Below, piece after piece: positions 62,435 to 64,000 of a DNA stretch of 64,000 nucleotides. Within the stretch, counting starts at the first letter, position 1, and each line of letters begins with the position of its first letter. This DNA is from an uncultured bacterium (GTDB taxonomy: Bacteria; Verrucomicrobiota; Kiritimatiellia; RFP12; UBA1067), in assembly GCA_902764415.1 (NCBI GenBank), contig CACWVU010000002.1, positions 1-64,000 of the forward strand, in the 5' to 3' direction. Under the pieces are notes generated by a model. That model saw only the letters and a list, made by a program, of their open reading frames with translations. It was not told the origin of the DNA and did not search any database. Both the position numbers and the translations under genes were made by a program.

Positions 62435-62611
62435 GGGCGAGTCGTGTAACTCAATACTTTGTGCACTCCGCGCTGATGCCGACGAAGGCCTTCAAACTGC
62501 GCTGAGCGGCGTGCCCGGCGTCCTTGTCGGCTGATGCTGTCCAGACTTTTCCAAATATGAGCGGATTTTTTCTTTTCACCTTTTCCCGGCGAAGTGGTAA
62601 TAGGATGACGT
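62435..62611. other. Spacer upstream of the sigma-factor ORF
   Basis: No gene is seen. AT-rich towards its end (GCGGATTTTTTCTTTTCACC), possibly carrying a termination or promoter signal, but no clear hairpin or -10 box. Confidence 0.3.
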
Positions 62612-64000
62612 ATGGGCATCATCAAGGAAATGCACGGCGACATCGAGCAGGAGGCAATCCACCTTCTCGCGCGGTATCGTGATGCATTGATGATGGAGGC
62701 GATATCGCTTACCTCGGGCGATATTCATGCCGCCGAAGAGCTGGTTTTGCAGGCTTTTGAGGTTCATCTGTTCAATCGCGAAAGGTATAACTCGTCGAAA
62801 GGGGGACTTTTGCCGTGGCTGAAGGGGATTGTGCGCAAAATACACGGCAAGGCGGTGCGGGACAAGGCCACGCGATCAATTGCCTATCTTTCGCCGGAGG
62901 AACTGGAGGTCTTGAGCGATATCCGTGCTCAGAGCAAGTCCACCAACGAGGAGGTCGAGTCCAATTCCGACGCTGAGATTGTGCGTGATGCGATTGCCAG
63001 ATTGCCTGAAAGTGCGCGTTCGGTAATTGTGCTCCACTATTTTGAATCGCTTTCGATTCGCCAGATTGCGGGAATGCTCTGCAAATCACAAGATTCGGTG
63101 AGAAGCAACCTCTACTACGCGCGCAAGGTTCTTGCGAAACGTCTCGGCAAGATGCTGGGCCGAGCCTCGCTTGCCGTTGGCGCTCTCCTTGTAGGATCCT
63201 CGCTTCTCTACGCCGCCGCCGTAATGACCGGCCTCGTGTTCCCGCTCTTCACGGGGACAGACCCCGCAACTGTCGATCCCGCACCTGTCGTCTCGCAAGC
63301 CAATGGGGACAGACCCCATGTTGATGGGGACAAGGCAGAAGGAGGACAGACCCTGCAAACCATTGGGGGCAGCCCCCAGGCTGATGGGGACAGACACCAG
63401 AAGAATCAGAGCGAAAGTGAGTGTTTAAACGAAAAAACAGAGGAAAATACCATGGATGCTACAACTAATGCCGTCACTTGGGGATCTTCGGTCAAAGCTG
63501 CCGCGGTGAAGACGCTTGCTTCAGTTGCGCTTGCAGTCACGGCCGTGTTCGGTGCCGCTCCAGCTGTTCAAGGCGCTGGGGAGCCGACCATCTCGTTAGA
63601 GGGTGACACGATCACGGTGACGGTTCCCGAGGGAACGGTTGCGACCAATGCGTCGCTCTACCTTTGCTGGGGCGCGCTGGACGCAGGCGAGGCGGTCTCC
63701 GCGTGGAGCCATTCGGTCTGCCTTGCCGACGGCAGCGTAACGGCGACCGGCGGCGTCTGGACCGTCTCGGCCGCGGAGAAAGGCGTTTTCGCCGCAATGC
63801 GCGCGATTGTCGCGGTGACGCGTCCCTACAAGGCGGTTGAATATGTCGAGTCCACGACGGGGGAGGCTGGGCTGGGCGGTGAGGACGTCACCCATAAGAC
63901 GCTGTCGGTATATTCGGGAGTTCGCGCGAGGACCGGCCTGCACGTGAAGACGCGGATGATGTGGCTTGCGTATGCTGACATGGATCTATGCGGCGGACGT
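62612..64000 (+). CDS. Sigma-70-like region fused to a membrane segment and surface domain (partial)
   Basis: An open frame of 463 codons still open at the window end. Residues about 25-95 resemble sigma region 2 (SGDIHAAEELVLQAFEVHLF, PWLKGIVRKIHGKA) and about 130-180 resemble region 4 (ARLPESARSVIVLHYFESLS, IRQIAGMLCKSQDSVRSNLY), as in ECF sigma factors. A membrane helix follows (about 184-210), then a linker full of GGGGACAGACCCC repeats (about 214-265). At Met281 (63452), preceded by AGAGGAAAA, a second signal-like segment (VKTLASVALAVTAVFGAAPA) leads into a beta-rich domain (PTISLEGDTITVTVPEGTVA). Either one fused protein is made, or a second gene starts at 63452 in the same frame with no stop between. 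Confidence 0.7.
   Translation, partial: MGIIKEMHGDIEQEAIHLLARYRDALMMEAISLTSGDIHAAEELVLQAFEVHLFNRERYNSSKGGLLPWLKGIVRKIHGKAVRDKATRSIAYLSPEELEVLSDIRAQSKSTNEEVESNSDAEIVRDAIARLPESARSVIVLHYFESLSIRQIAGMLCKSQDSVRSNLYYARKVLAKRLGKMLGRASLAVGALLVGSSLLYAAAVMTGLVFPLFTGTDPATVDPAPVVSQANGDRPHVDGDKAEGGQTLQTIGGSPQADGDRHQKNQSESECLNEKTEENTMDATTNAVTWGSSVKAAAVKTLASVALAVTAVFGAAPAVQGAGEPTISLEGDTITVTVPEGTVATNASLYLCWGALDAGEAVSAWSHSVCLADGSVTATGGVWTVSAAEKGVFAAMRAIVAVTRPYKAVEYVESTTGEAGLGGEDVTHKTLSVYSGVRARTGLHVKTRMMWLAYADMDLCGGR
63253..63398. repeat. Cluster of GGGGACAGACCCC palindromes
   Basis: Near-identical palindromes at 63253-63265 and 63305-63317, with degenerate copies at 63326-63335, 63341-63355, 63365-63377 (GGGGGCAGCCCCC) and 63386-63398. 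All lie in frame in the sigma-factor ORF, encoding GDRP/GTDP-type peptides. Confidence 0.85.

Follow-up and report, generated by a model that had tools for sequence, protein, structure and literature searches.

The window analysed here, bases 1-64000 of the 100,695-base contig C2 of a 2.6-Mb genome in 74 contigs (designated G000), ends inside a single long open frame on the forward strand. The frame opens at ATG 62612, has no stop up to the end of the window and closes near position 66478 of contig C2 (G000:C2), giving a protein of 1288 aa. Residues 1-180 (62612-63151) are an ECF sigma factor, as shown by matches to TIGR02937 (residues 16-178, E 1.8e-18; 66.7 bits against a cut-off of 42.9) and to the Pfam family Sigma70_r4_2 (E 1.1e-9; 38.3 bits against 25.7), and by a match to the SigW structure (PDB 5wuq, E 5.8e-6). 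Region 2 was not called separately by Pfam in this copy, was just below the cut-off in four paralogues (L011, L012, L014 and L016; L numbers denote individual loci) and was above it in L094, so that a separate region 2 match is neither secured nor excluded for the window copy; binding to RNA polymerase and initiation were not assayed. Comparison with PHROGs returned mostly general sigma families or unassigned groups, and gave no support for a phage origin.

The sigma factor is followed, after a basic flank KRLGKMLGR, by a transmembrane (TM) helix predicted to have its N-terminus inside (63164-63232, residues ~185-207), with a Kyte-Doolittle mean of 2.04 at residue 187; a hydrophobic helix at this position is present in all fused paralogues. 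Residues 208-280 (63233-63451) form a stop-free low-complexity linker containing two exact copies of GGGGACAGACCCC (63253 and 63305) and at least two degenerate ones (63365 and 63386). A second hydrophobic stretch, a Sec-type signal peptide MDATTNAVTWGSSVKAAAVKTLASVALAVTAVFGAAPAVQG, begins at ATG 63452 (63452-63577, residues 281 to ~322, the cleavage point being estimated by eye), and the ATG is preceded by a Shine-Dalgarno (SD) sequence GAGGAAA at 63440-63446 (duplex energy -6.0 kcal/mol). The extracytoplasmic part consists of three related repeats of about 310 aa, the second and third 43% and 36% identical to the first; the first starts at 63596 and runs on past the window end at 64000, and the protein continues outside the window to about 66478, ending in IGSGFLVIVK. 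No domain family was assigned to these repeats and no convincing PDB match was found; structure prediction was not run, as a lone sequence would give a weak model.

A preliminary description made from the sequence alone had reported a sigma region 2/4 pair running without a stop through a membrane helix, a linker made of palindromes, a second signal-like helix and a beta-rich domain. The observation of one uninterrupted frame is confirmed. The linker, however, is made only partly of the repeats, and the motif is an interrupted GGGG/CCCC inverted repeat and not a perfect palindrome. It occurs at 26 exact places in the genome (20 forward and 6 reverse) against 0 for the reversed control, in linkers and just upstream of some fusions, and is possibly a REP-like element.

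Homologues were then sought, as the preliminary description had proposed, to see whether the fusion recurs. A profile of the sigma part found 14 good matches in this genome, all in long open frames, of which 13 have the same plan; the copy on contig C28 is cut by its contig end, while the match on contig C26 (L064) is a different fusion of about 600 aa. This second type of sigma-TM fusion, also seen at L071 (G032:C5) and as frames of ~590-613 aa in many genomes of the genus, has a C-terminal part that by eye resembles terpene-cyclase/prenyltransferase-type repeats, and has no internal signal module and no shared C-terminal tail. In 162 genomes of the order, 109 listed matches, in 26 genomes, include the TM helix; 83 of these lie in frames of 500 aa or more and 17 in frames of 280-499 aa, and the nine shorter ones lie at contig ends by coordinate, three of them having been checked directly. 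The helix-bearing family was not seen outside the order in samples of 146 genomes of the class and 289 of the phylum at strict thresholds. The surface domains differ between copies, being lectin-like (Laminin_G_3, ConA-like), BspA-type leucine-rich (LRR_5), probably beta-helical, or unassigned.

Two alternatives had been offered for the open frame, namely a membrane-tethered sigma factor fused to a surface protein, perhaps a one-piece sensor-regulator, or the removal by repeats of the stop between two genes. This interpretation is partly supported: the first alternative is upheld by the recurrence of the fusion in tens of copies, whereas the sensor-regulator role and proteolytic release remain inference. 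In favour of the second, the window linker contains repeat copies, but fusions with completely different linker sequences are also open, and the same architecture is found in 26 separately assembled genomes, so that accidental stop loss, and equally an assembly or frameshift artefact in this copy, is rejected. Relatives with two separate genes and a stop near 63420 had been named in advance as the finding that would speak against a fusion, and these were looked for. Only one such case was found, at L144 (G479:C1:48500-52000), where a frameshift in the linker, natural or artefactual, ends the sigma frame in an ATGA overlap with the surface start while the surface frame stays open. Unless this is an assembly error, the fusion is not indispensable everywhere.

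In 44 copies compared by anatomy, the linker (mean 69.5 aa) has no stop in the sigma frame, while 26 and 36 copies have stops in the other two forward frames. The joint shuffle expectation is about 1e-44, a figure that overstates independence because the copies are related; moreover, many of the 44 were selected for their long frames, and the frame count is unbiased only for this genome and for the tally of 109 matches. Differences between related copies show little codon-position bias in the linker. In some pairs the linker is more alike, at times far more alike, than the flanking modules (L066/L072: sigma 66%, linker 99.5%, surface domain 81%; L010/L017: 53%, 86% and unrelated; L013/L016: 71%, 79% and unrelated), which suggests recombination between copies through the linker, a likely recombination hub. 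Such mosaics would also suit a surface-variation cassette driven by recombination, in which the sigma part is mainly a leader and not a working regulator. This reading is considered unlikely, since the sigma domains are conserved, with mostly third-position changes in close pairs, and are matched to promoter subgroup, as expected for working sigma factors.

Initiation at 63452 had been put forward beforehand as a point to examine, and it is strongly supported by the conserved SD sequence, although there are no expression data on a second product. In nearly every copy the second helix is preceded by a strong SD sequence and an in-frame ATG, with a mean duplex energy of -6.85 kcal/mol against -2.23 at 359 other in-frame ATGs (p 5e-19) and -3.10 at the sigma start. 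The rule for choosing the internal ATG rewarded a good SD sequence together with the signal peptide and the M-N/K start, which inflates this difference somewhat, but a listing of all candidate ATGs shows that the choice is rarely ambiguous. In one genome, G048, the glycine codon inside the SD sequence is GGA in 11 of 11 cases, against 184 of 1230 (15%) elsewhere, so that the signal is conserved beyond amino-acid need. In addition, a free-standing giant secreted protein at G000:C10 has its own signal peptide at the matching position and is 54-59% identical to the surface module of L012, aligned from just after the signal peptide. The internal ATG is therefore best read as the true start of a secreted protein nested in the longer gene. 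Giant secreted proteins with no sigma part seen, but with the same repeat domain and C-terminal tail (GSVYYIR, GSAYYLR), lie upstream of fusion genes at L014/L123 (G000:C37:1-7194; about 2,400 aa, cut by the contig start) and at L124/L125 (G000:C10:840 to ~11843; about 3,670 aa). Nested initiation is not universal, as L152 (G006) and L147 (G451) join sigma and helix directly to an ectodomain without the internal signal module.

An ECF-type promoter lies directly upstream of the sigma start. In the window copy it comprises a -35 element TTTTCACCTTTTCCCG (62573-62588) and a -10-like element GTGGTAATA (62594-62602), whose GTAATA core lies 16 bases after the CACC core; as the -10 element ends 9 bases before the ATG, it is inferred that a transcript would begin at or within a few bases of ATG 62612 and be almost leaderless. 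Expectation-maximisation motif analysis of 48 upstream regions yielded a shared ECF-like element TTtgAACCTTTTGCC with a log-likelihood of 162, against 70-81 in shuffles, a value inflated somewhat by orthologous pairs. In scans of the 2.6-Mb genome one subgroup pattern, a -35 with its -10, occurs only four times, each time before a fusion gene, and the other occurs with at most one mismatch only four times, again each time before a fusion, with 0 in controls. At two mismatches the second pattern also hits the promoter of the window gene and five places not before known fusions, which were not examined. Promoter type follows sigma subgroup with one intermediate (L016), and the simplest reading is that these sigma factors mainly serve their own genes.

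The last seven residues of the family follow (G/A)(F/T)hhhh(R/K/H), with G or A at -7 in 46 of 53 sequences, a hydrophobic residue or Y at -4 in all 53, and R, K or H at -1 in 46 of 53. Among 299 ORFs in the stretches examined 46 carry this tail, of which 43 are family members and two of the other three are giant surface proteins beside fusions. No Pfam match to a catalogued C-terminal sorting domain was found at E up to 0.1, and the tail has no known reader. It is kept in three minimal proteins with sigma, helix, linker and tail but no surface domain (L074, L079 and L119), and it also ends short fusions of about 325-355 aa (L116, L117, L118, L121 and L080), most of which share a ~100-aa 'DEYQFIVSG' segment across three families (f1, f4 and f6). 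L147 lacks it, and in L146 (G451:C76) the C-terminus (RCPGRASRRRPW) departs from that of its near relative L066 (GGQGFFIRVF), perhaps owing to a frameshift near the end. The presence of the tail on minimal sigma-helix proteins, on anti-sigma fusions and on secreted proteins suggests recognition outside the inner membrane.

In other genomes a split version occurs, in which a stand-alone sigma gene overlaps, usually by ATGA, a gene for a zinc-finger anti-sigma or anti-sigma-like region, helix, linker, internal SD sequence and signal peptide, surface domain and the same tail. This arrangement is that of canonical ECF sigma/zinc-finger membrane anti-sigma operons, whereas in the window type the anti-sigma domain is missing and the sigma itself is the tethered part. 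The split relatives raise the possibility that the fused copies hide a short anti-sigma segment between region 4 and the helix, in the manner of IutY or ECF52, but this seems improbable, since only about 5-15 residues separate the two, too few for a zinc-finger anti-sigma domain, and no such domain was found in Pfam or NCBIfam searches. The nested start shared by most copies, the dedicated promoter, the tail and the split version all lay beyond the preliminary description.

The closest described systems are IutY of Pseudomonas putida (ECF243) and SCO4117 of Streptomyces coelicolor (ECF52). IutY likewise has an N-terminal ECF sigma, one membrane helix and a periplasmic C-terminal part in one chain, and is released by Prc and RseP (PMC5411451, PMC8999054); it carries, however, a cell-surface-signalling anti-sigma domain, for which no Pfam match was found in six full proteins of the present family, and answers to an outer-membrane siderophore receptor, while here the extracytoplasmic part is a large repeat or lectin-like protein, an internal start with signal peptide is present and there are many copies per genome. 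SCO4117 combines sigma, TM helix and an extracellular carbohydrate-binding domain in one chain, with a putative self-promoter (PMC5826349), but has a zinc-finger anti-sigma domain and a proline-rich linker, is the only ECF52 member in S. coelicolor and belongs to a group described as exclusive to Actinobacteria; no nested start is described for it in the text consulted. As the window copy has no assigned domain and only paralogues match Laminin_G_3 or LRR_5, the data do not tell whether it binds carbohydrate. Internal in-frame starts giving two proposed products from one frame are exemplified by cas8b/Cas11b (PMC11899642), although here the internal product is a secreted protein with its own signal peptide, nested in a membrane-tethered transcription factor. 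The family is not regarded as a member of ECF243 or ECF52, from which it differs in lacking a recognisable anti-sigma domain; its exact ECF group in the current classification was not determined, and no description of the family, of a nested secreted product or of such multi-copy expansion was found in the open-access literature searched.

Taken together, the data are best explained, with moderate confidence, by a lineage-restricted family of one-gene regulators. In this view translation from 62612 makes an ECF sigma factor held at the inner membrane by one helix and carrying a large repeat-built surface protein outside, while initiation at 63452 makes the same surface protein alone, with a cleavable signal peptide and probably in larger amount. 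The sigma factor most likely drives its own dedicated promoter (62573-62602), which would make the gene a self-activating cassette. A signal outside the inner membrane, probably the export, binding or assembly state of the surface domain and its tail, is expected to trigger proteolysis by a site-1 and then the site-2 protease, freeing the sigma, which then turns up its own surface protein; autoregulation plus membrane release would make each gene a positive-feedback switch. The fusion, its recurrence, the conserved internal start signals, the near-exclusivity of the promoter and the tail were read from the sequence itself, whereas the dual products, autoregulation, topology, proteolytic release and the nature of the signal are inferred, there being no transcript, ribosome-profiling or protein data, and processing not having been measured. 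A site-2 protease gene is present, but this is weak support, as one was found in 14 of 14 control genomes; the precedent for release is IutY. The second helix makes the topology of the long form uncertain, since its insertion could return the surface domain to the cytoplasm.

A less likely but possible alternative is a purely translational arrangement, in which the surface protein is made solely from the internal start, the long product is a low-level or rapidly cleaved by-product, the open linker merely couples the two, and the sigma is freed by routine cleavage without sensing by the surface domain. The strong internal SD sequence, the little codon-position bias of a linker built partly from dispersed repeats, the separate frames of G479:C1 and the free-standing secreted homologue agree with it. 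On the other hand, a coupling device does not need about 100 in-frame stop-free linkers, and ATGA overlaps would be the norm, as in the split version; minimal sigma-TM-tail proteins and direct sigma-TM-ectodomain fusions without an internal start also exist.

Membrane-tethered sigma factors are known from a few examples, and the present family is an expanded one in which the sigma, its promoter and the probable target protein are one gene, with a second product apparently started inside it. Gene callers would annotate these genes as one odd fusion and miss the secreted product. A further, tentative reading, not excluded but rather unlikely, is that of a new class of self-contained surface-protein switch, yielding from one frame both a membrane-tethered sigma sensor and the secreted protein it senses; with more than ten cassettes per genome and linker-mediated shuffling, cells would choose and remember by positive feedback which surface protein to display, the shared tail reporting export or assembly of the secreted form to the tethered form. 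If the two products and the self-activation are real, the system would allow a direct test of whether an exported protein reports its own export to transcription, and it would be about the smallest possible sigma regulon and a new way for bacteria to choose surface proteins.
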